Origin: Tritonibacter mobilis
GTDB taxonomy: Bacteria > Pseudomonadota > Alphaproteobacteria > Rhodobacterales > Rhodobacteraceae
Assembly (NCBI RefSeq): GCF_001681715.1
Contig: NZ_LNWY01000001.1
Location: forward strand, 1-64,000
Reading direction: 5' to 3'
DNA: 64,000 nucleotides
Position numbers and translations under genes: made by a program. Shown one piece after another: positions 205 to 22,162 of the stretch. Every line of letters begins with the position of its first letter. Within the stretch, counting starts at the first letter, position 1. The notes below the pieces were generated by a model. It was not told the origin of the DNA, did no database searches, and saw only the letters and a program-made list of their open reading frames with translations.

Positions 205-3200
205 CTATAGGTCGATTTCCAGCACCCCGTCGGGGTCTGCTGCACGAGATTGGCACAAGACTATCGCATCGCGCCGTTGCGCTTTGGACAGAACGAAGTC
301 GCGGTGCTCAGCCTCTCCGGCCAGCAACCCGCATTTGCAGACGCCACAGATGCCGTCAGCACATTTCACATCTACATGGATGCCCTGCTCGGCCAATGCA
401 TCAGTGGCGGTTTGCTCCGCACTCACATGGATATCGCGACCAGAGCGCGCCAGTCTCAAGACAAAGGGGTGGTTTTCATACTCTGGCTGCTCAGGCACAG
501 AGAAATACTCCAGATGCCTCGCGTCCTCCGGAAAACCGGCAGCCTCGGCCGCAGTCATGACAGCTTCCATATAGGGCGCGGCCCCACAGGTGTAGACGTG
601 CCAGCCCGGCTGGTACCCCGAGAGGATCTGATCAAAGGCTGCCCGCGTCCCTTCTTGTGATATATGGAGGTGGACCTTGGACGCCCAAGGCATCTGGGCG
701 AGATCATCGAGGTAGCCACCCTGCTCCCGCGACTTGATCGAATAGTGGAACTCAAACTCCGCGCCCAGCGCATGCAAGCGGTGCGCCATGGCGATCATCG
801 GGGTGACCCCAATCCCGCCCCCCATCAGAAAGGTCTTGCTGGCGCTCTCATCGAGCGGAAAGTGATTGATCGGGCGAGAGATGAAAATACGGCGCCCTTC
901 CGAGAAGATCCTGTGCAAGAGCTTTGAGCCGCCACGCCCAGCCTCTTCGCGCAACACGCCAATCTGGTAATGCGAGCGATCCGCCGGATTGCCCGACATG
1001 GAATACTGACGCAGAAACTCTGGGGCGACGACGATATCAAGATGCGCTCCGGCACTCCACTCCGGCAAATCGGAGCCATCGGCAGCACGGAATTCGTATT
1101 TTGTGACTCCTGCGGCCATCCCTTCTACCTTTGAGACGATCACCTGTAGAACCGGGCTCTCGTCATCATTGGTATAAAGGTGATCCCAATCACCTGTCTC
1201 GCCCCGCTCCCTGCGTTGTTTGTATTCCTCGGCGGTGATCATGGCCTGATAGGCTTCGATCCCGGCTTCGCGATCCATTGGAAACGGATAGGGATAAGGG
1301 TGCGGTGCGAGGTGAGCCGGGTAGACCGCCAGCGTCTGATCCTCGTAGCGCAGGTTGAGGTCCTTTTGCAGATCCCGCGCATTCACCGGATGCCGGGTCG
1401 GGCGATAGGCACCGTCTTCTTCCAGTTCCAGATCCCACCACCATTTCTTGGTCGGGTTCATCTCGCCATGGCCCAGCATATCGTCGAGCCGTGCCAAAGC
1501 CGGCGCGGCCTTGGGAATGTTCATCGCCGCCCAGCGGAAGGGCTTTTCCGCAAAGATCCCTTCGAGGTTCCAAGGACAGGTTTTCATGCACCGACCACAC
1601 ATCGCGCCGCCTGGCGTGGTGATCCGGTAGGTGGTGCATTTCTGGCTGTCGGATTTCCAGATCTCGTAGCCGTTAAACATCAGCTTCGGACCCGCAGTGA
1701 TCGCGCCCGACGGGCATTCGCGCGCACATTTATTACAGGACTCGCAAAAGGATTGCAGGCCGAAGTCAATCGGCTTGTCATGCGCCATCGGCATGTCGGT
1801 GGTCACCACACCGGATTTCAGGCGCGGGCCGAGGAAGGGATTGAGGATCACCTCGCCAATGCGTGAGACCTCACCCAGACCGGACAGCAACAACAAGGGC
1901 GGTTGCAGAACCTCGCCATCCATCACCGTGTGTGCCTTGGCCTTATAGCCAAGATTGCGGATCTGGCGTGCAATCACGCCCCCCAACAGCGAGAACCGCA
2001 GATACGCGCGCATGGATTGCGCAACCGCAATCCAGTCGTCGCCTGAGGTCCCTTCGGTCGTGTCGAACCCCTGATCGACGATCATCGAAATCGCATGCGG
2101 CTGATCCGGCACAATGGGTGTGCCGGTGGCATCATGGCTGTACCATGTCCAATCCGGGCAACGGCTGATCCCGACCGCATCAATCCCCAACCAATAGGAA
2201 GCCGCTTTCACCATATCCGCATTGCGCGTAGCATCCGTCGGACGAGGCCCGTCGGCAGGCGTGCCGTCCTGCAACAGCACAAACGCCCCAAGCATCCGCC
2301 GCTGCGCCATTGAAGGCGCCGCCTTGCGGACATAGAAGCCGCCGGTCGCGGCCTTTTGGTTCCCCTTGCCCATATCGCCGAACTGGGCACGGGCAAACAT
2401 ATCGGCGCGTTTGGGCACACGGGCCACGCGCGCCTCATCTATATATGTCGTGGGCGTCTCCACTCGCTTCAGTGTCTCAAAAGGGTGCGGGCCATCGCGA
2501 AAGTCGCGGTCTTTATAAGGATCACCGTTCAGGGCAGACCGCTCTGCCCCTGCCCCGATCCACCAGCGCAAATCGCGCCCGTTTTGTCCGGGCTGCTCGG
2601 GCAGCGGCGCCAAGGGGCGATCTTCGGCCAACTCAAAGTCGGTGGTCACGGCCGCCAGACCATACCGGGTGCCCCAATAGGGCGCAACAAGCTGGCCATC
2701 TTCCATACGCACCAACCCCGCCGCAACCGCGAGCCGGTTTAGATCCACATCAGACGACGTCCCAGTATGCGCCTTGGCATCCCAGCCCAGCAATCGGATG
2801 TAATTGGCAATCACCACCGCCGTTTCGGCGCTGCGTAGACAGGCCCGATGCGCCTCCGCGCCCTCGATCCAGTCACACCCCGCCTCTTCCGGGCGAGGAT
2901 CACGCGGCATTTCATAGAGGAACACAATCGCATGACGATGCGCACCAATCGTGGTGGGTGGCGCGTGCATGGCTTCTTTGAGGTCCGCCATGATCATGTC
3001 GATCCCCGAGGCCAGCGTCTTGGTCTGGCGGGTCTTCAGATCCTCGGCCAAACGGTCGATGTCCGGATTGAGCCACGGCGTTGACAGGCGGGCCTCTTCC
3101 GTCATCGGCCCGATGCCCACCATGGAAGCATCCGCAAAATACCCAAAGGCTTTGATGTGATCTGATCGCTCTTGCAGATCGGTCGGCACCTCGCCGCGAG

Positions 3201-3417
3201 AACCATTCACCAGCCCATCGCGGATCGCATCCATCATCGCCTGATATTCGCACATCGCGTTGATGATGCTGTCAGGCTTTTGCGGGCGGCGGAAATTGAG
3301 CGGCGCCGATGGCGGCAAATCACTCAGCTCCGCATGATCGCAACGCTTCAACCGCTCCAGCGGGAAAGGCCCCATATGCACGGGCCGATGCCGGGAGGAA
3401 AAGAAACGAATGGACAT
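205..3417 (-). CDS. Self-sufficient reductive dehalogenase (RdhA fused to flavin/2Fe-2S reductase)
   Basis: This 1070-residue protein joins a catabolic-type reductive dehalogenase to its own electron-supply module. Residues about 400-620 form the cobalamin/iron-sulfur core, with ferredoxin motifs C558/C561/C564/C568 and C594/C607/C610/C614 and a candidate catalytic tyrosine at 426 (TWYSHD). Residues about 755-1070 resemble phthalate-dioxygenase-type reductases: an RQYSM flavin motif (803), a GGGIGVTP nucleotide motif (867), and a plant-type 2Fe-2S site with CADGICGVC at 1019-1027. There is no Tat signal and no RdhB anchor gene, so it should be cytoplasmic and non-respiratory, like the NpRdhA and BhbA families. 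Residues 200-270 look like a decayed copy of 480-552. The start follows an AGGAG ribosome site. The likely reaction is NAD(P)H-driven removal of halogen from an aromatic ring; the substrate is unknown. Confidence 0.9.
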   Translation of the reverse strand: MSIRFFSSRHRPVHMGPFPLERLKRCDHAELSDLPPSAPLNFRRPQKPDSIINAMCEYQAMMDAIRDGLVNGSRGEVPTDLQERSDHIKAFGYFADASMVGIGPMTEEARLSTPWLNPDIDRLAEDLKTRQTKTLASGIDMIMADLKEAMHAPPTTIGAHRHAIVFLYEMPRDPRPEEAGCDWIEGAEAHRACLRSAETAVVIANYIRLLGWDAKAHTGTSSDVDLNRLAVAAGLVRMEDGQLVAPYWGTRYGLAAVTTDFELAEDRPLAPLPEQPGQNGRDLRWWIGAGAERSALNGDPYKDRDFRDGPHPFETLKRVETPTTYIDEARVARVPKRADMFARAQFGDMGKGNQKAATGGFYVRKAAPSMAQRRMLGAFVLLQDGTPADGPRPTDATRNADMVKAASYWLGIDAVGISRCPDWTWYSHDATGTPIVPDQPHAISMIVDQGFDTTEGTSGDDWIAVAQSMRAYLRFSLLGGVIARQIRNLGYKAKAHTVMDGEVLQPPLLLLSGLGEVSRIGEVILNPFLGPRLKSGVVTTDMPMAHDKPIDFGLQSFCESCNKCARECPSGAITAGPKLMFNGYEIWKSDSQKCTTYRITTPGGAMCGRCMKTCPWNLEGIFAEKPFRWAAMNIPKAAPALARLDDMLGHGEMNPTKKWWWDLELEEDGAYRPTRHPVNARDLQKDLNLRYEDQTLAVYPAHLAPHPYPYPFPMDREAGIEAYQAMITAEEYKQRRERGETGDWDHLYTNDDESPVLQVIVSKVEGMAAGVTKYEFRAADGSDLPEWSAGAHLDIVVAPEFLRQYSMSGNPADRSHYQIGVLREEAGRGGSKLLHRIFSEGRRIFISRPINHFPLDESASKTFLMGGGIGVTPMIAMAHRLHALGAEFEFHYSIKSREQGGYLDDLAQMPWASKVHLHISQEGTRAAFDQILSGYQPGWHVYTCGAAPYMEAVMTAAEAAGFPEDARHLEYFSVPEQPEYENHPFVLRLARSGRDIHVSAEQTATDALAEQGIHVDVKCADGICGVCKCGLLAGEAEHRDFVLSKAQRRDAIVLCQSRAADPDGVLEIDL

Positions 3418-3757: not shown

Positions 3758-4948
3758 ATGGCTTATTCGTTTACTTATATTTACGCCCCGCTGAAATGGA
3801 TCAGCGCCGGGCTGATTTCTCTGGCTTTATCCGCGAGTGCGTCTGCCCAACCGATGCCCGGCGGTGATCGCGGCCCTATACCGGCTGGAGTGATCACACT
3901 CAGCGAGGCACAGGTGCCTTTCTCGGTAACGCTGCCCGGACGCGCCATCGCCTATGAAGAGGTCAATATCCGCCCGCGCGTCGACGGCACTATTAGCGAA
4001 ATACCCTATGAAGCTGGGCGCAAGGTCGAAAAAGGCGATGTTCTGTTTCGCATTGAAGGTGACACCTTTGAGGTAGACGTCGCCGCAGCCGAGGCCGAAG
4101 TCGCGCGCGCAGAGGCCGCCGTCACCGCAGCCGAGGCCACATTATCTCGCTATGAGCGCCTGCAAGGAACAGGCGTGACCATTGAGGACGTGGAAAACGC
4201 CCGCGTGACGGTGCTGCAGAACAAGGCCGAGCTGAGCTCGGCAAACGCAAAACTCAAACTGGCTCGATTGAATCTGGAACGGACCGAGATCCACAGCCCG
4301 ATCACGGGCATTGTCGCGGTTCCCGAAGTTTCCGTTGGGGCCGTGGTCACAGCTAATCAAGCTGATGCGCTCACCACGGTGACCCGTCTCGACCCGATCT
4401 ACATCGATGTTGAGGAATCCAGTAAACGCCTCGCAGAGGTTCGCGCGTTGATGGAAGGTGGTACGCTGCAACGGGGCGAAGGGCTGGATCTGACGCTCAC
4501 GCTGGAGAACGGCGTCCAATACGATCAAAAAGGCACGCTTGAATCGCCCGGCACCCGCGTCTCCACCACAACCGGCAGCTTTGAGTTCCGCATCCGTTTT
4601 GACAATCCAGAGCGACATATTCTGCCGGGGCAATTCCTGCGCGTCGAAATCGAGCTTGGCACGACACGCGCCGTTATGGTGCCCCAAGGGGCCACCTCGC
4701 GGGCTGCAGACGGCACGCTCACCGCTTTTGTGGCCGTTGATGGCAAGGCGGAGCAACGCGAGCTGACCGAACACGGAAGTTATCAAAACGCGTGGATCGT
4801 CACCGACGGCATCGCCCCCGGCGAAGCCCTGATCGTCGATGGATTAATGGCCATGCGTGATGGAGCCGACATTCAGCCCGTCAGCGTGGAAATATCTGAA
4901 AATGGCGTCGTCACGGACGCCAAAGATGCCAGCAGCGACGAGAGCTAA
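3758..4948 (+). CDS. RND efflux periplasmic adaptor (AcrA/MexA family)
   Basis: This 396-residue membrane-fusion protein bridges an inner-membrane RND pump and an outer-membrane channel. A signal peptide (about residues 1-30, ending ASASA-Q) has no lipobox cysteine, so it is not a lipoprotein. Next come the first lipoyl half (VNIRPRVDGTI, PYEAGRKVEKGDVLF), an alanine/glutamate-rich coiled-coil hairpin (about 105-170), the second lipoyl half (ERTEIHSPITGIV) and the beta-barrel and membrane-proximal domains. An AAGGA ribosome site precedes the start. The pump gene follows after 2 bases, so the pair is an operon. No TolC-type channel gene is nearby. Confidence 0.93.
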   Translation: MAYSFTYIYAPLKWISAGLISLALSASASAQPMPGGDRGPIPAGVITLSEAQVPFSVTLPGRAIAYEEVNIRPRVDGTISEIPYEAGRKVEKGDVLFRIEGDTFEVDVAAAEAEVARAEAAVTAAEATLSRYERLQGTGVTIEDVENARVTVLQNKAELSSANAKLKLARLNLERTEIHSPITGIVAVPEVSVGAVVTANQADALTTVTRLDPIYIDVEESSKRLAEVRALMEGGTLQRGEGLDLTLTLENGVQYDQKGTLESPGTRVSTTTGSFEFRIRFDNPERHILPGQFLRVEIELGTTRAVMVPQGATSRAADGTLTAFVAVDGKAEQRELTEHGSYQNAWIVTDGIAPGEALIVDGLMAMRDGADIQPVSVEISENGVVTDAKDASSDES

Positions 4949-4950
4949 TC

Positions 4951-7900
4951 ATGGGTCTATTCTTTATCCGGCGCCCGGTCTTTGCCTGGGTGCTTGCCCT
5001 GATGACGATGCTCATCGGCGCGTGGTCCGCCTTCACCCTGCCAGTGGCGCAATACCCGGACATCGCGCCTACCACTGTTCGGGTCTCGGCCAGCTACAAC
5101 GGGGCCACTGCCGAGGCGGTCGAAAATTCCGTCACCCGTGTCATCGAAGATGCGATGACGGGGCTCGACGGGATGATCTACATGACCGCGCGCTCTTCCG
5201 AAGGGTCAAGCTCCATCCAGATCACCTTTGACGAAAGCGTCGAGCCAATCGACGCGCAAAATGAGGTGCAAACCAAGGTCTCGCAAGTTGAAAGCCAGCT
5301 GCCAACGGCCGTGCGCAGCCGGGGCGTGACCGTGTCGCGCTCCTCATCGTCGATCTTGCTCGTCGGGGCCATCGTTGCGGATGACAGCCGATATTCTACC
5401 GTGCAATTGGGCAATATCCTGTCTGAACAGGTCGAGGGGCCGATCCAGCGCACCGAGGGTGTCGGCGGCGTCAGCATCTTTGGCTCAGGCTATGCTATGC
5501 GGATCTGGCTCGATCCAATTGCGCTGGCCCGGTTCCAATTGACACCGCAGGATGTTGTCGGTGCCGTCGAGGAGCAAAACACCACCGTCTCCGTCGGCTC
5601 ACTGGGCAGCCAGCCAACGCTTGCGGGGCAACAGTTCAACGCCACCATCACCGCCCAGAGCCAGATGACCACCGTCGATGAATTCGAGCAGATCCTGCTG
5701 AAATCCGACGAGGACGGCGGCGCGGTGCGGCTGGCTGATGTGGCGCGGGTAGAAATCGGCCAAGAAAGCTATGGCGGTGACTCGCGCTTTTCCGGCCAGA
5801 ACGCTACGGGCTTTGGCGTAAACCTCGCAACCGGGGCCAATGCGGTCGACACAGCCGCTGCGGTACGCGCAACGCTCGACCGGCTTGCGCCATCGCTGCC
5901 CGATGGTGTCAGATTTGAAATCGCCTATGACACCTCCCCTTTTGTGGAGCTGTCGATTGAGCAGGTCTACCACACCCTGATTGAGGCCGTGGTACTGGTC
6001 TTTCTGGTGCTGCTGCTGTTTCTGCAAAGCTGGCGCGCAACACTGATCCCACTGATTGCAGTGCCGGTTGTCTTGTTGGGAACCTTTGCCGTGCTGCAGC
6101 TAGGTGGTTTTTCCATCAACACGCTCACCATGTTTGCCATGGTGCTCGCGATTGGGCTTTTGGTCGATGACGCCATCGTCGTGGTCGAAAACGTCGAACG
6201 CCTGATGGAAGACGAGGGCCTCACGGCATTGGACGCGACCCGCAAGAGCATGGGGCAGATCACCTCGGCATTGCTCGGTATCAACGTGGTACTGGCAGCG
6301 GTTTTCTTGCCAATGGCATTCTTTGGCGGCTCCACCGGCGTCATCTACCGGCAGTTCTCCGTCACGATGGTGACCGCCATGACGCTGTCGCTTTGTGTCG
6401 CGATTATTCTGTCGCCGCCTATGTCGGCACGCCTGCTGAAACCCAAGACCGGGCAGCCGCGTTTTGCGCCGTTTCGCTGGTTCAATGCGCTCGTTGCCCG
6501 CGCCATCACCGGTTATGGCGCAGGCGTGAAGGGCACACTGCGGCTGCCGTTTTTGATGCCACTTGCGTTGGTCGCGGTTTTGGTCGGTGCCTATATGGTC
6601 AACAACCGCCTCACCACCTCGTTCATCCCGACCGAGGATCAGGGTGTGTTGATCACCATCGTCACCCTGCCCGAAGGCGCAACCACCGCCCAGACCACGG
6701 CCACGGTTGAGAAACTCGAACAGTTCTTCCTTGCCGATGAAGGGGTCGAGAGCACCTTTGCCGCGCTGGGGTTTGGCTTTTCGGGCAGCGGCCAGAACCG
6801 GGCACTGGTGTTTGTAAAACTCAAAAGCTTTGATGAACGCAGTGGGCGCGCCGATCTGACGGCTGCGCAGGTGGCGCAACGCGCCAATATTGCGTTCAGT
6901 CAGCTGCGCGACGGGCAGATTTTCGTGCTGCAACCCCCGGCAATCCGCGGGCTCGGCAATAGCGGCGGCTTTGAGATGTATCTGGTGGACCAGTCGGGGG
7001 CCGGTTCAGAGGCTCTGCAGGCTGCGGCCGAACAACTTGTTGCAAACGCCACAAATAGCGAACGCGTGACCAACCTCAGCGCCAATGGCACGGAAAAGGA
7101 CAGCGCGGTGAAGATCACAATTGACCGCGCCAAAGCCGAGAGCTTCGGGCTCACCCTCTCTGACGTGAACGGCATGCTCTCGGTGATTTTTGCGGGCCTT
7201 GAGGTGAACGATTTTGAACTGGGTGCGGCGCTGCGTCCAGTTATCGTACAGGGGGACGCCGCACATCGGATGCAGACCGAAGATGTATTCGACTGGTATG
7301 CCCGCAACGCTTCCGGTGAAATGGTGCCCTTCTCTGCCTTCATGTCGACCTCGTGGGAACCGGTCGCCCCCACGCTAGAGCGTTATGGCGGCACCTCCGC
7401 ATTGGAGATTTCCGGCTCTCCCGGCGTTGGCTACAGCTCTGGTAGCGCAATGGAGGAAATGGAGGCGCTGGTGGCGGAACTTGACGGGGGATATGCTGCA
7501 GCTTGGACTGGTCTGAGCTATCAGGAACGCCAGTCCGGCGATCAGGCACCAATCCTTTATGCAATCTCTGCGCTGGTGGTCTTCTTGGCTCTGGCCGCGC
7601 TCTACGAGAGCTGGTCGATCCCGCTTGCCGTGATGCTGGCGGTGCCGGTTGGCATTCTTGGCGCGCTGTTTTCTGCGTGGATCTTTGGGCAGTCCAATGA
7701 TGTCTATTTCAAAGTGGGCATGCTGACGACCATCGGCCTCGCCGCGCGCAACGCCATTTTGATCGTCGAATTTGCCGAAGACCTGCGCCGTGACGGTATG
7801 CGCATCGCAGAAGCCGCGATTGAGGCCGCGCGGTTGCGCTTGCGCCCGATCCTGATGACTGCGCTGACCTTCATCCTCGGCGTGCTGCCGCTCGCAATTG

Positions 7901-8061
7901 CGACAGGGGCCGGGGCGGCATCGCAAAACGCCATCGGGATTGGTGTCATTGGTGGGATGCTGGCCTCGACCTTCCTCGGGATTTTCATGGTTCCTGCCTT
8001 TTATGTCCTGATTATGCGTGTCACGCGAAAACTCTCGGGCGATAGAGCCGCGCAAACCTAA
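4951..8061 (+). CDS. RND multidrug efflux pump (AcrB/HAE1 family)
   Basis: This 1036-residue inner-membrane proton/drug antiporter has the family length and layout: a first membrane helix (11-30), two large periplasmic loops and 12 predicted helices. The helix-4 proton-relay aspartates are D406 and D407 (GLLVDDAIVVVENVE). The helix-10 position that is lysine in AcrB (K940, in the SAKNAILI context) is arginine here, R933 in AARNAILIVEF. It is probably still functional because charge is kept. It lies 2 bases after the adaptor gene and is followed by a strong hairpin. Substrates cannot be predicted. Confidence 0.95.
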   Translation: MGLFFIRRPVFAWVLALMTMLIGAWSAFTLPVAQYPDIAPTTVRVSASYNGATAEAVENSVTRVIEDAMTGLDGMIYMTARSSEGSSSIQITFDESVEPIDAQNEVQTKVSQVESQLPTAVRSRGVTVSRSSSSILLVGAIVADDSRYSTVQLGNILSEQVEGPIQRTEGVGGVSIFGSGYAMRIWLDPIALARFQLTPQDVVGAVEEQNTTVSVGSLGSQPTLAGQQFNATITAQSQMTTVDEFEQILLKSDEDGGAVRLADVARVEIGQESYGGDSRFSGQNATGFGVNLATGANAVDTAAAVRATLDRLAPSLPDGVRFEIAYDTSPFVELSIEQVYHTLIEAVVLVFLVLLLFLQSWRATLIPLIAVPVVLLGTFAVLQLGGFSINTLTMFAMVLAIGLLVDDAIVVVENVERLMEDEGLTALDATRKSMGQITSALLGINVVLAAVFLPMAFFGGSTGVIYRQFSVTMVTAMTLSLCVAIILSPPMSARLLKPKTGQPRFAPFRWFNALVARAITGYGAGVKGTLRLPFLMPLALVAVLVGAYMVNNRLTTSFIPTEDQGVLITIVTLPEGATTAQTTATVEKLEQFFLADEGVESTFAALGFGFSGSGQNRALVFVKLKSFDERSGRADLTAAQVAQRANIAFSQLRDGQIFVLQPPAIRGLGNSGGFEMYLVDQSGAGSEALQAAAEQLVANATNSERVTNLSANGTEKDSAVKITIDRAKAESFGLTLSDVNGMLSVIFAGLEVNDFELGAALRPVIVQGDAAHRMQTEDVFDWYARNASGEMVPFSAFMSTSWEPVAPTLERYGGTSALEISGSPGVGYSSGSAMEEMEALVAELDGGYAAAWTGLSYQERQSGDQAPILYAISALVVFLALAALYESWSIPLAVMLAVPVGILGALFSAWIFGQSNDVYFKVGMLTTIGLAARNAILIVEFAEDLRRDGMRIAEAAIEAARLRLRPILMTALTFILGVLPLAIATGAGAASQNAIGIGVIGGMLASTFLGIFMVPAFYVLIMRVTRKLSGDRAAQT

Positions 8062-12930: not shown

Positions 12931-13085
12931 ACCCCGCTGAGGTTTGTTCTAGTCAGTCCGTGGCCTCGCGTGATGTGATATTTGGTATACATGATACATT
13001 GTGAGTGCGCCTAAAACATTCTACCAATCCGGTCGCACGCCCAGCCCGATTCCCAGCTCGGCCAAAATCTACGGACAACTCTCCA

Positions 13086-15401
13086 ATGACTTTACGTCTC
13101 ACAGCCCTGTCGGGGCTGTCTTTTCTGCTGACCTCTACAGCACTTTTCGCCGCTGATTTACAACTCTACCACGAGGAAGGCCTGTCGACAGGAATTGCCC
13201 TGTCCTTCCCATTCGCCATCGAAGAGAACCGCGCCACCATCGCCCGGCTGTCTTATGGCCGGGACGAGGATCATAACGCTCAGCTCAGCATCGAGGCCAT
13301 GCGGCGCATGACCCTCGCCCATGGCTGGACGGTTGGTGTGGGGGTGTTTGCCGATAGTTCAACGGATGACATCGGCAATCGTTTCTCTCAGGTTGGCATG
13401 AGTGGAGATCTGCAGCGCGGGATCTTTCAAGCCAATCTGAACGCCTATTTGCCAGTCGGAACCAAGAGCCACGCAGACGCACGCCATGACGCCCTTGCGG
13501 AAATGGATGGAACGATCCGGTTCAAAGGCGGACGCAGCCTCGCGCTGCGGGGTCTGGATGCGGAAATGGGTGCGCGGTTTGCATTCTCTGCGCTGGGAGG
13601 CGGGTCTTTCGGCCTGTTTGGCGGTGGCTTCACCTTTGAACACAGCGATGGTGCATCTTATGACGGCACCTCCGCACGTGCCGAATTGGAACTGGAAAAC
13701 CTCTTTGGTACCTATCCGGGCGCATTGGTGCGCGCTGGCGTACGTGCCGAACGCGCCGCGGGCCGCACCGATAGCAGCGCCTATGTCTCGCTGAGCATTC
13801 CACTAGGGGCCAAACCCACCAAGACCACGGGAGAAAATGGACGTCCGCGCGCATCCAGCCTTAATCGCCTGACGCGCGACACCCTGCGCCGTCGCCGTGT
13901 CACCACCCGCGCCGGAGCCTATGGCGCAGCAGAAGCCGTCACGCTCTCCGGTCAAGCTCTTGGCGGTTTCACCCGCGCTAGCGAGGGCGACAATCTACAG
14001 GACGCGCTGAACACAACAGGCGCCAATGGTTTGGTCTTTGCGTCGGGGAGCTTCACCACCGCAGGCTTGACCCTTGCAAACGGTCAAACGCTTGTTGGGG
14101 GCGGCGGTGCCGTGACATTGCAGGCCGCAAATGGTCGCCAGATGGTGCTCGCCAACTCGGGCGCTGCGACCACCATTCAGGGACAGGCTGTTACGAGCGG
14201 ATCAGCAGATGCCACCAACGCTGAACCGGTATCCGCCATCCTGACCATGGCGAATGACAGCACCGCGCGACATCTGACACTGACGGGCGGCCTGCAAGGT
14301 ATCGCCGCACATGGCGCGGATACTGTGACCGTCTCAGATATCCATATCTCCGACACCCTCGATGATGCGGTTCATTTAACAGACGTCAGCAATGCCAGCT
14401 TTAGCGAGATTTCAATCGACAATGCTGGTGGCAATGGCTTTGCCGCGACAGGTGGCAGCAACATCGCGATCAGCGGCGCCAACATCGCTACACCTGGTGA
14501 AAATGGGTTTGAGCTGCGCAACATCGACGGGTTCAGCCTGCAAAATGCCCATCTCAGCGATATGGCAATCTGTGAAGACAACACCCTGTGTGAATTCAGC
14601 GTCTACAACCCCAATTCCGTCCCCAATTCCGGGGTAAATGCCATCGGCCTGACCAATGCCAGCTTCGACAACATCCGGATGGACGATGTCACTTATGGTT
14701 TCTTCCTTGCCTCGGAAATAAGCACCGCAGATTACGACTACACCATCACCCGCGGCTCAACTGATCTGAGCCTCAACGACATCACCATCACCAACAGCCG
14801 CCGAGAGGCCATTCTTGCGGTGGGGGTCGATGGGCTGGATATGACGCATGTCACCCTCGACAACAGCGCGCAAGATCGCGATATGGACCTCGTGGTGATC
14901 CAGTCCAGCGGGCGTGTCACCATGGAGAATGCCACTCTGAGTGGCGGTATCAACGGGCTGATGCTGGTGGACGCCTTGCGCCTTGAGAGTATCACCGAGG
15001 ATATGCGTTTTCGTAACATCACCATAAGTGACACCAGCCGGGCGGGGATCTTCCTGAACCCGATCCGAAACGTGAACTTTGAAAATATCACGGTGAGCAA
15101 TGCAGGCACCCACGGCATCTTCTTGCTCGGGGACAGCTGGGGCTACAATGGTGGGCCAATCACCGACGTCGAGTTCACCGATGTCACAATCGACAATGCG
15201 GCAACTGCCGGTGTGAACTTCTATGGGCCTGCAACCAATGTCAGCGGCAATGTGACAGTCCTCAATACGCCCGCAGATTGCAGCGCCGATACCGGGTCTT
15301 GGTCCGGCACCGCGCTCGACAATGACGCAAGCCACACATTGACTATCAATGGCATGGTGATGGGCACGGACACACTTGCAGATTGCACATCCCCTTACTG
15401 A
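13086..15401 (+). CDS. Inverse-autotransporter-like outer-membrane protein with beta-helix passenger
   Basis: This 771-residue exported protein has a signal peptide (1-22, ending ALFA-AD). Residues 23-242 show alternating beta-strand patterns like the inverse autotransporter (intimin-type, type Ve) barrel: GWTVGVGVFAD (80-90), RFSQVGMSG (99-107), FQANLNAYLPVG (114-125), AYVSLSIPLG (232-241). An arginine-rich segment (253-275, with RRRR at 268-271) follows the barrel. Residues about 300-760 are a right-handed parallel beta-helix with many asparagine-ladder repeats (such as NITISDTSRAGIFL and NVNFENITVSNAGTHGIFL). The model is an N-terminal barrel and a surface-exposed passenger. I start at 13086, where the signal peptide begins; an upstream in-frame GTG (13005) would put a polar leader before it. 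Confidence 0.75.
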   Translation: MTLRLTALSGLSFLLTSTALFAADLQLYHEEGLSTGIALSFPFAIEENRATIARLSYGRDEDHNAQLSIEAMRRMTLAHGWTVGVGVFADSSTDDIGNRFSQVGMSGDLQRGIFQANLNAYLPVGTKSHADARHDALAEMDGTIRFKGGRSLALRGLDAEMGARFAFSALGGGSFGLFGGGFTFEHSDGASYDGTSARAELELENLFGTYPGALVRAGVRAERAAGRTDSSAYVSLSIPLGAKPTKTTGENGRPRASSLNRLTRDTLRRRRVTTRAGAYGAAEAVTLSGQALGGFTRASEGDNLQDALNTTGANGLVFASGSFTTAGLTLANGQTLVGGGGAVTLQAANGRQMVLANSGAATTIQGQAVTSGSADATNAEPVSAILTMANDSTARHLTLTGGLQGIAAHGADTVTVSDIHISDTLDDAVHLTDVSNASFSEISIDNAGGNGFAATGGSNIAISGANIATPGENGFELRNIDGFSLQNAHLSDMAICEDNTLCEFSVYNPNSVPNSGVNAIGLTNASFDNIRMDDVTYGFFLASEISTADYDYTITRGSTDLSLNDITITNSRREAILAVGVDGLDMTHVTLDNSAQDRDMDLVVIQSSGRVTMENATLSGGINGLMLVDALRLESITEDMRFRNITISDTSRAGIFLNPIRNVNFENITVSNAGTHGIFLLGDSWGYNGGPITDVEFTDVTIDNAATAGVNFYGPATNVSGNVTVLNTPADCSADTGSWSGTALDNDASHTLTINGMVMGTDTLADCTSPY

Positions 15402-18708: not shown

Positions 18709-19398
18709 ATGACGATCAAAACCTGCATTTTCGATGCCTATGGGACGCTGTTTGATGTCAGCGCTGCCGCACGACAAGCCGCCACAGAACCAGACTTCCC
18801 GCAGCTCGCCGAAAGCTGGTCCATATTGGCGCAGAACTGGCGTTTGAAACAGCTGCAATACACATGGCTCAGGGCCATTTCCGGCGCGCACACAGATTTC
18901 TGGCAGGTCACGCAGGAGGGGCTTGATTGGGCGTTGGAAGCGGCGAGCCTCAATGGTCAGCCAGCGCTCCGGCAACGATTGCTCGATCTCTATTGGGAGC
19001 TTGAGGCCTATCCAGAAGTTCCAGCCATGCTGCGCACACTTAAAGACGCGGGATATCAAACCGGCATCCTTTCCAATGGCTCTCCCGATATGCTCGCAGG
19101 TGCCGTTCAGTCTGCCTCTCTCGGGGCATTGCTTGACGATGTGCTCTCTGTGGAAAGTGTCGGTATCTTCAAACCCGCCGCCGCCGTCTATGATCTGGTC
19201 GGGCAGCGGTTTGGGCATTCGAAATCCGAAGTGCTGTTTGTCTCTTCTAACGGCTGGGATGCAGGTTGCGCGGCGGGCTACGGGTTTACCTCCGTTTGGG
19301 TCAATCGCGCGGCCGACCCCATCGACCGCCTCCCGTGGCCGCCTGCACATGTCCTGAGCGACCTCACGTCGATCCCGGATATTGCCGCCACCGCCTGA
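18709..19398 (+). CDS. L-2-haloacid dehalogenase (HAD superfamily type II)
   Basis: This 229-residue enzyme should hydrolyse short L-2-halo acids to D-2-hydroxy acids. Expected active-site residues are present: nucleophile D9 and T13 in FDAYGTLFD, R45 in NWRLKQLQY, S122/N123 in LSNGS, K155 and Y161 in FKPAAAVYD, and S180/N181/D184 in VSSNGWDAG. That set, especially R45 with SSNGWD, separates true haloacid dehalogenases from generic HAD phosphatases. A GGGAGGG ribosome site precedes the start. The next gene starts 25 bases after the stop. Confidence 0.9.
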   Translation: MTIKTCIFDAYGTLFDVSAAARQAATEPDFPQLAESWSILAQNWRLKQLQYTWLRAISGAHTDFWQVTQEGLDWALEAASLNGQPALRQRLLDLYWELEAYPEVPAMLRTLKDAGYQTGILSNGSPDMLAGAVQSASLGALLDDVLSVESVGIFKPAAAVYDLVGQRFGHSKSEVLFVSSNGWDAGCAAGYGFTSVWVNRAADPIDRLPWPPAHVLSDLTSIPDIAATA

Positions 19399-21370: not shown

Positions 21371-22162
21371 ATGCCTATTGCCGACCTCGGCGACGTCCAA
21401 TTGAATTACACCTTGCGCGGTCCTACCGATGCCCCAGCCGTTGTCTTCGCCCATGCGCTTGGCACCGATCAAAGCATCTGGGATGCCGTTATCAATGCGT
21501 TGCCGGAAAACCTGCGCATCCTTACCTTCGACATGCGTGGACATGGGGCCTCTTCGGTCCCGGATGCGCCTTACTCCATGGGCACCCTGATCCGTGATGC
21601 GGAACGGCTCATGGAGGTCTGCGAAATCCGCGACAGTCTTTTTGTCGGCCTGTCGATAGGCGGCATGATCGCACAGGGGCTTGCAGTCAAACGCCTCGAT
21701 CTGATCCGCGCGCTTGTGCTCTCCAACACGGCTGCAAAAATCGGCACCCCGGAAATCTGGGCACGCCGAATGGACGCGGTCCGGGCCAATGGTCTGAATG
21801 CGATCTTGGACGATACCATGCAGCGCTGGTTTCCACGCCGCTACCTACAATCGGGCGCGCATCTTGCGACCCAAAGGCGTGTTCAGAAGACCTCCGTTGA
21901 GGGGTATCTGGGATGTTGTGCCGCGATCGCAGGGACGGATTTCTATACTCCGACCTCTGGTCTGCGTCTGCCTGTGCTCGGCATAGCAGGCTCTGATGAT
22001 GGCTCCACCCCGCCAGACCTCGTCCGAGAAACCACTGACCTGATCCCCGGATCACAATTCACGGTGTTGCGCCGAACCGGCCATGTCCCCCCCATCGACC
22101 AGCCCGAAGCTTTTGCGGAGCGTCTGACCCAATTCATGCACGACGTGGGGCACCTCGCCTGA
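21371..22162 (+). CDS. pcaD: 3-oxoadipate enol-lactonase
   Basis: This 263-residue alpha/beta hydrolase matches PcaD, which opens 3-oxoadipate enol-lactone in the protocatechuate branch of the beta-ketoadipate pathway. Family features are YTLRGPTDAP, FAHALGTDQSIWD, FDMRGHGASS, nucleophile elbow GLSIGG with S95, and a late histidine in RRTGHVPPIDQPEAF. The other pca genes are not in the window. Function is assigned by overall pattern; related lactonases or esterases cannot be fully excluded. Confidence 0.82.
   Translation: MPIADLGDVQLNYTLRGPTDAPAVVFAHALGTDQSIWDAVINALPENLRILTFDMRGHGASSVPDAPYSMGTLIRDAERLMEVCEIRDSLFVGLSIGGMIAQGLAVKRLDLIRALVLSNTAAKIGTPEIWARRMDAVRANGLNAILDDTMQRWFPRRYLQSGAHLATQRRVQKTSVEGYLGCCAAIAGTDFYTPTSGLRLPVLGIAGSDDGSTPPDLVRETTDLIPGSQFTVLRRTGHVPPIDQPEAFAERLTQFMHDVGHLA

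Follow-up and report, generated by a model that had tools for sequence, protein, structure and literature searches.

A putative self-sufficient reductive dehalogenase fused to its own reductase in Tritonibacter mobilis

Does an open reading frame (ORF) at the very edge of a Tritonibacter mobilis contig encode a reductive dehalogenase (RDH) that carries its own electron supply? If so, on which halogenated compounds would it act, and to what end? The ORF lies in the first 64,000 nucleotides of contig NZ_LNWY01000001.1 (hereafter the window), a stretch that starts at base 1 of this contig, C1, in a genome of 4.7 Mb and 59 contigs. An earlier note, made from the letters alone, had described its product as a corrinoid dehalogenase with two iron-sulphur clusters, joined in one chain to a complete NAD(P)H-flavin-2Fe-2S reductase. 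Judged by its sequence and by analogy with characterised relatives, the protein is very probably a cytoplasmic, NAD(P)H-driven, self-sufficient catabolic RDH, likely acting on bromo- and iodophenols.

A dehalogenase and its reductase in one chain

The ORF is intact: it begins with ATG on the minus strand and runs from 3417 down to 205, encoding 1070 amino acids followed by a stop codon, while the plus-strand reading of the same bases is interrupted by stops. That it lies far beyond chance is confirmed by near-full-length relatives at 69.5–98% identity and by ratios of nonsynonymous to synonymous substitution (dN/dS) of 0.04–0.05. What does it encode? Residues 431–651 match the RDH model TIGR02486, and the score of the whole protein exceeds the NCBIfam cut-off (211.1 against 160.35 bits). 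A genome search with the same model yields a separate match in the N-terminal half (residues ~81–269, E 2.6e-12, below the cut-off), which fits the vestigial duplication of the cobalamin domain described as a mark of catabolic RdhAs (PMC10463259). In a PDB sequence search, the NpRdhA chain 6zxu aligns over residues 2–107 and 159–730 (whole-chain E 8.6e-160). The same search aligns residues 753–1067 with phthalate dioxygenase reductase (2pia), and Pfam reports a Fer2 match in the C-terminal part. Within this module we recognise RQYS, which we take to be the flavin (FMN) motif, GGIGVTP, presumably the NAD(P)-binding loop, and C1019, C1024, C1027 and C1055, the presumed [2Fe-2S] ligands. Together with Foldseek hits on a weak structural model, these matches bear out the claim of a dehalogenase and a reductase in one chain.

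To define which residues are kept, we aligned 34 fused proteins: the window protein, 30 picked from 80 genome loci, and three copies carried on plasmids, namely BhbA (L088), the OM-1 protein (L089) and an Aminobacter copy (L092). Residue equivalences were taken through the NpRdhA alignment of the PDB sequence search. F291, S422, M423, Y426, K488 and R552 of NpRdhA correspond to F341, S468, M469, Y472, K534 and R598 here, and all six are identical to NpRdhA and invariant in 34/34 proteins. Catalytic roles for Y426, K488, R552 and S422 of NpRdhA are reported in PMC7565698. Eleven cysteines (558, 561, 564, 568, 607, 610, 614, 1019, 1024, 1027 and 1055) and, in addition, C594 are likewise invariant (34/34), as are R803, Q804 and S806 of the RQYS motif. 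The earlier note had named the loss of corrinoid-binding residues as the observation that would speak against a dehalogenase; the catalytic residues and cluster cysteines, which this comparison covers in place of individual corrinoid contacts, are all retained. Coordinates are collected in the table.

Features of the fused dehalogenase gene and its surroundings (window positions unless a locus is named)
Feature	Position	Strand	Basis
Whole ORF, putative fused (self-sufficient) catabolic RDH	205..3417	-	TIGR02486 211.1 bits vs 160.35; orthologues
Putative second N-terminal copy of RDH/cobalamin-binding fold, probably vestigial	2611..3177	-	separate TIGR02486 match, below cut-off
Insert core, residues 117-147, conserved in roseobacter-type fused enzymes, unaligned in NpRdhA	2977..3069	-	alignment gap
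Predicted catalytic corrinoid-binding core and cluster region	1465..2127	-	TIGR02486 match over cut-off
Y472, equivalent of NpRdhA Y426 (proton donor)	2002..2004	-	34/34
K534, equivalent of NpRdhA K488	1816..1818	-	34/34
R598, equivalent of NpRdhA R552	1624..1626	-	34/34
First putative [4Fe-4S] motif CESCNKCARECP, residues 558-569	1711..1746	-	sequence and 34-protein alignment
Second putative [4Fe-4S] motif CGRCMKTCP, residues 607-615	1573..1599	-	sequence and 34-protein alignment
Phthalate-dioxygenase-reductase-like module, residues ~753-1070	208..1161	-	2pia E 8e-54
Presumed flavin motif RQYS, residues 803-806	1000..1011	-	motif read from sequence
Presumed NAD(P)-binding loop GGIGVTP, residues 867-873	799..819	-	motif read from sequence
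Presumed [2Fe-2S] ligands C1019, C1024, C1027, C1055	253..363	-	Fer2 match; each invariant in 34/34
RND efflux pair (adaptor and permease), divergent from the dehalogenase gene	3758-8061	+	family scan
Haloacid dehalogenase type II	18709-19398	+	TIGR01428 189 bits, cut-off 125
3-Oxoadipate enol-lactonase pcaD	21371-22162	+	288 bits, cut-off 256
Ribosomal RNA operon region beside the orthologous gene	L090:15984-21508	same direction as gene	

Neither mark of a respiratory RdhA of the PceA/CprA type was found, in agreement with what the earlier note had read. The RRxFL pattern of a twin-arginine (Tat) signal is absent in a sequence pattern check, the N-terminus being MSIRFFSSRHRP, and the scan of neighbouring genes, which took in part of the ORFs and, downstream, only the 204 bases between the stop codon and the contig end, turned up nothing recognisable as rdhB-like. 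The missing Tat motif, together with the characterised JtRdhA of the same architecture, supports a cytoplasmic location. Sequence and JtRdhA also favour ordinary NAD(P)H as the electron supply, as had been proposed.

How might such an enzyme work? In the C-terminal reductase, FMN would accept a hydride from NAD(P)H. Single electrons would then travel via the [2Fe-2S] domain and both [4Fe-4S] clusters and reach the cobalamin of the core in its base-off form. There, the halogen of an ortho-halogenated phenol would contact the cobalt and leave as halide, with the Tyr472/Lys534 pair, aided by Arg598 and Ser468, binding the phenol oxygen and protonating the ring carbon. Candidate substrates are of the bromo-4-hydroxybenzoate or bromo-4-hydroxyphenylacetate types, and the dehalogenated phenols could then be oxidised by the cell, whose genome carries a 4-hydroxybenzoate hydroxylase (PobA, 684 bits, cut-off 539). 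Cofactor binding, activity, substrate and physiological role are all properties that we infer from the family.

Relatives, selection and genomic setting

How common is this arrangement? A contig scan of other genomes gave 584 related stretches, of which the best 80 were retained; these 80 are 69.5–98% identical to the window protein over nearly its whole length and come mostly from Rhodobacterales, with some from Hyphomicrobiales. Among sampled genomes of the bacterial family, 149/394 contain a match with E no higher than 1e-200 (148/393 genera), or 141/347 if the more complete genomes are considered, and this count of 149/394 is a measure of how common fused enzymes are in the family. The match covers at least 90% of the length in 145 family genomes; 5 of the 150 matches listed fall short of 90% query coverage, and for four of these the genome has no other match. 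Within the genus Tritonibacter, the dehalogenase part has matches of at least 70% identity in 10 of 18 genomes, the present one included; in G006 the match spans residues 1–567 only. The genome itself holds no second gene over the TIGR02486 cut-off, and a search of viral contigs gave three pattern matches, none of which was confirmed as a relative.

With NpRdhA as root, a FastTree phylogeny of 87 fused proteins groups BhbA with OM-1 (local support 0.997) and places the Aminobacter copy outside all of the other 84. The window protein falls with L087, L090, L020, L001, L002, L003 and L008 (support 1.0). The gene is under purifying selection: dN/dS (NG86, computed from dN and dS) is ~0.042 for L090, ~0.053 for L020, ~0.040 for L087 and ~0.049 for L001, the last two being rough ratios, as their dS exceeds 1.

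In some roseobacters a second, short and unfused RDH gene occurs besides the fused one. Three of four searched genomes have a short-frame match over the cut-off: Roseobacter sp. MED193 (L122), which carries both a fused orthologue and the short gene, and the two genomes from which L005 and L040 come.

Why does the contig end beside this gene? On plasmid p2 of T. mobilis A3R06 (L090), a 16S-tRNA-tRNA-23S-5S ribosomal operon follows downstream in the same direction, ~770 bases past the gene. By inference from L090, a ribosomal operon would follow here too, and such a repeat probably accounts both for the break of this contig at the 3' side of the gene and for the contigs of several relatives that stop shortly downstream. 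In the upstream gap, a promoter scan found no sigma-70-like site, and there is one terminator-like site (0.4 expected from shuffles); a repeat search found no repeats.

On the other side, upstream and transcribed divergently, lies an RND efflux pair followed by an MFS transporter. The pair adjoins the gene in 4/87 loci (the window, L001, L003 and L008) and is not adjacent in L090 and L020, whose proteins are 98.6% and 97.9% identical; DNA similarity to the window ends at 3699 in L090 and at 3430 in L020, that is, it spans the gene and up to 282 bp past its start. We therefore rejected the pump as a general partner, present as it is at only 4/87 loci and missing at the closest copies, and the RND-adjacent spot seems to have been rearranged repeatedly.

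For the 80 genome loci, flanks of at most 8 kb were compared, with many contigs stopping just past the gene; neighbour ORFs were chosen by length, and neighbour clusters were named from one representative each. Group-specific neighbours do occur. The 5-oxoprolinase genes pxpBCA are found in 12–14 loci and a molybdenum-hydroxylase large subunit in 14, and representatives of the Ruegeria loci show a molybdenum-hydroxylase-type gene set with a LysR gene. An ABC transporter, possibly for B12, had been guessed from ORF size beside the Phaeobacter-type copies; family scans identify these genes as pxpBCA and a chemotaxis receptor. The gene thus appears to be a stand-alone unit in the roseobacter group, whose neighbours do not tell its role.

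Farther along the window, a haloacid dehalogenase gene and pcaD lie 15–18 kb from the dehalogenase, with intervening genes that look unrelated; beside the TM1040 copy, genes annotated as haloacid dehalogenase type II and pcaD lie at 7–10 kb. An ORF of 798 amino acids (13005–15401, plus strand) has a right-handed beta-helix match (PF13229) and no NCBIfam match.

Substrate and role: weighing the alternatives

Several observations weigh against the protein being a self-sufficient dehalogenase of bromo- and iodophenols. The Pfam family Dehalogenase (PF13486) does not match the protein at E up to 1; it is likewise unmatched in the whole genome and in 14/14 control genomes, so that absence is not thereby shown. 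The AlphaFold model, built from 31 rows, reaches a mean pLDDT of 67.3 and falls mostly below 50 in region 553–726. In the cofactor region it is not good enough to position either the domains or the insert described below. Foldseek on this model ranks NpRdhA chains first (E 1e-48, yet with a query TM-score of only 0.45–0.46 and an rmsd of 12.7–12.8), then two self-sufficient P450s, then 2pia, and to the extent that so weak a model allows, it supports both the RDH and the reductase fold. The earlier note had suggested looking in the genome for cobalamin synthesis or uptake. Synthesis finds support in CobN of the aerobic pathway, our single marker for it (1024.8 bits including neighbours in frame, cut-off 822); for uptake, no BtuB equivalog exceeds its cut-off in the genome, where TonB-receptor-like stretches match weakly. 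No conserved operon was found, the most widespread neighbour cluster being present in 18/87 loci at scattered positions, so context names no substrate for the roseobacter group. Our literature search found no paper testing a Tritonibacter enzyme, which does not prove that none exists. Lastly, the pocket differs from that of NpRdhA at five positions: F290 is M340 here (M in 31/34), K307 is T358 (T in 10/34, K in 20/34), P311 is Y362 (Y in 32/34), A419 is V465 (V in 32/34) and N452 is V498 (V in 32/34).

Could these pocket changes mean that the roseobacter group has moved to a different halogenated natural substrate, away from simple bromobenzoates? Only BhbA and OM-1 have F, S, S and A at 340, 362, 465 and 498, and the Aminobacter copy agrees with the window, a split that speaks for such a move. 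The catalytic residues, however, are unchanged, and JtRdhA uses a broad range of bromo- and iodophenols with only minor conservative changes near its second bromine site (PMC10463259). We consider such a shift unlikely. Another of the pocket positions, F361 (F310 in NpRdhA), is variable, with F in 6/34.

A related and somewhat bolder idea takes in an insert. The stretch ~108–158, between the two blocks aligned with NpRdhA, has no aligned counterpart in that protein, which has about nine residues there. The core of the insert has a mean conservation of 0.895 in 31 sequences, compared with 0.907 for the corrinoid core and 0.81 for the whole protein, but BhbA and the OM-1 protein diverge there. 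In the JtRdhA AlphaFold model, an insert particular to fused enzymes folds over the active site (PMC10463259). Tentatively, and with more doubt than conviction, we suggest that the roseobacter-type fused enzymes may form a group apart from BhbA, with their own pocket (M340/Y362/V465/V498) and a conserved insert that would serve as a gate to the active site or as a docking point for the [2Fe-2S] domain, and with marine halogenated phenolics, instead of pollutant-like bromobenzoates, as natural substrate.

Would the enzyme feed the cell or protect it? It might strip halogens from toxic bromophenols near algae and sponges without supplying carbon, as would suit a gene that, in the roseobacter group, lacks conserved neighbours of a catabolic kind and, in the window, stands divergent from an efflux pair, an arrangement confined to 4/87 loci. 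That pair, however, is not beside the nearest copies, L090 and L020, BhbA and its OM-1 relative sit with genes for the catabolism of aromatic rings, and the genome of the window holds pobA and pcaD. We regard a purely detoxifying enzyme as a serious possibility, if the less probable one; on the present evidence the role may be either of the two that the earlier note had named. By comparison, we give practically no credence to an epoxyqueuosine reductase (QueG) or other non-dehalogenating class III cobalamin enzyme. The protein does match TIGR00276 weakly (23.3 bits, cut-off 200), but it exceeds the RDH cut-off, and a weak RDH hit at another place in the genome (contig C45, 26.6 bits) is the likelier QueG candidate.

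For the dehalogenase that we favour, the leaving group is by analogy more likely to be bromine or iodine, because JtRdhA did not turn over the chlorinated substrates tested. On the same grounds, bromophenols are a better choice of test substrate than the chlorophenols that the earlier note had named beside them, and so are iodophenols.

Comparison with known systems

By sequence, the protein belongs to the already described subfamily of self-sufficient catabolic RdhAs that includes BhbA and JtRdhA. This subfamily ("full-length/self-sufficient catabolic RdhA") was defined in PMC10463259 with a tree that contains BhbA, JtRdhA and an RdhA of Ruegeria pomeroyi. An alphaproteobacterial dominance had been noted before, when a mainly alphaproteobacterial rdhA cluster was equated with BhbA in 2014 (PMC3939436), and putative bhbA homologues are described as widespread in the Roseobacter clade (PMC13101508). 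The earlier note had spoken of an NpRdhA/BhbA type of fusion. This holds for BhbA, and for JtRdhA; NpRdhA is unfused and a structural relative only, placed in a clade without reductase domain (PMC10463259).

Compared with characterised catabolic RdhAs, as the earlier note had recommended, the protein is 50% identical to BhbA (Comamonas sp. 7D-2, WP_015585978) and 44% identical to NpRdhA. Like the window protein, BhbA is fused, aligns over the full length and has the same catalytic residues, but it differs at pocket positions 340, 362, 465 and 498 and in the insert. Its gene is plasmid-borne, beside protocatechuate 4,5-dioxygenase genes, and that of the Nitratireductor OM-1 relative has pobA and genes for protocatechuate/extradiol dioxygenases nearby. 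NpRdhA of Nitratireductor pacificus (4ras, 6zxu) aligns over 503 positions of the catalytic part and has the same Ser/Met/Tyr/Lys/Arg residues. Unlike the window protein, it has no reductase domain (the 4ras chain has 704 amino acids) and no counterpart of the insert, besides its several pocket differences. The orthologues of the TM1040 megaplasmid (L087) and of T. mobilis p2 (L090) are 91% and 98.6% identical and of the same length, with different genes directly upstream.

A roseobacter RDH with reported activity is Ros_A3X954 of Roseobacter sp. MED193, which debrominates 2,6-dibromophenol (PMC13101508). We considered it as a tested orthologue and rejected it: the cluster motifs published for it, at residues 283 and 337, sit in the short second MED193 gene, not in the fused one. 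Ros_A3X954 is a separate, unfused paralogue of 395 amino acids, 28.7% identical to the window enzyme over 237 residues, and is reported to be oxygen-sensitive (PMC13101508), unlike JtRdhA.

A functional reference is JtRdhA (Jhaorihella thermophila, WP_104007082), also from a marine bacterium. As judged from its published description, not from a sequence alignment, it resembles the window enzyme in having no Tat signal, a duplicated cobalamin domain, two [4Fe-4S] clusters, a fused phthalate-dioxygenase-reductase module and the catalytic Tyr/Lys/Arg. JtRdhA is NADPH-dependent and active with and without air, and it removes bromine and iodine, not chlorine; chlorinated analogues inhibited it, with no turnover of those tested (PMC10463259). 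According to that 2023 paper, only one example of the subfamily had been studied in detail, and it names the restriction of fused enzymes to bromine and iodine as an open question. The window enzyme adds a well-supported member to this little-studied subfamily and could be used to test whether fused enzymes stop at bromine and iodine. If it is active, bacteria that carry the fused enzyme would share in aerobic debromination at sea.

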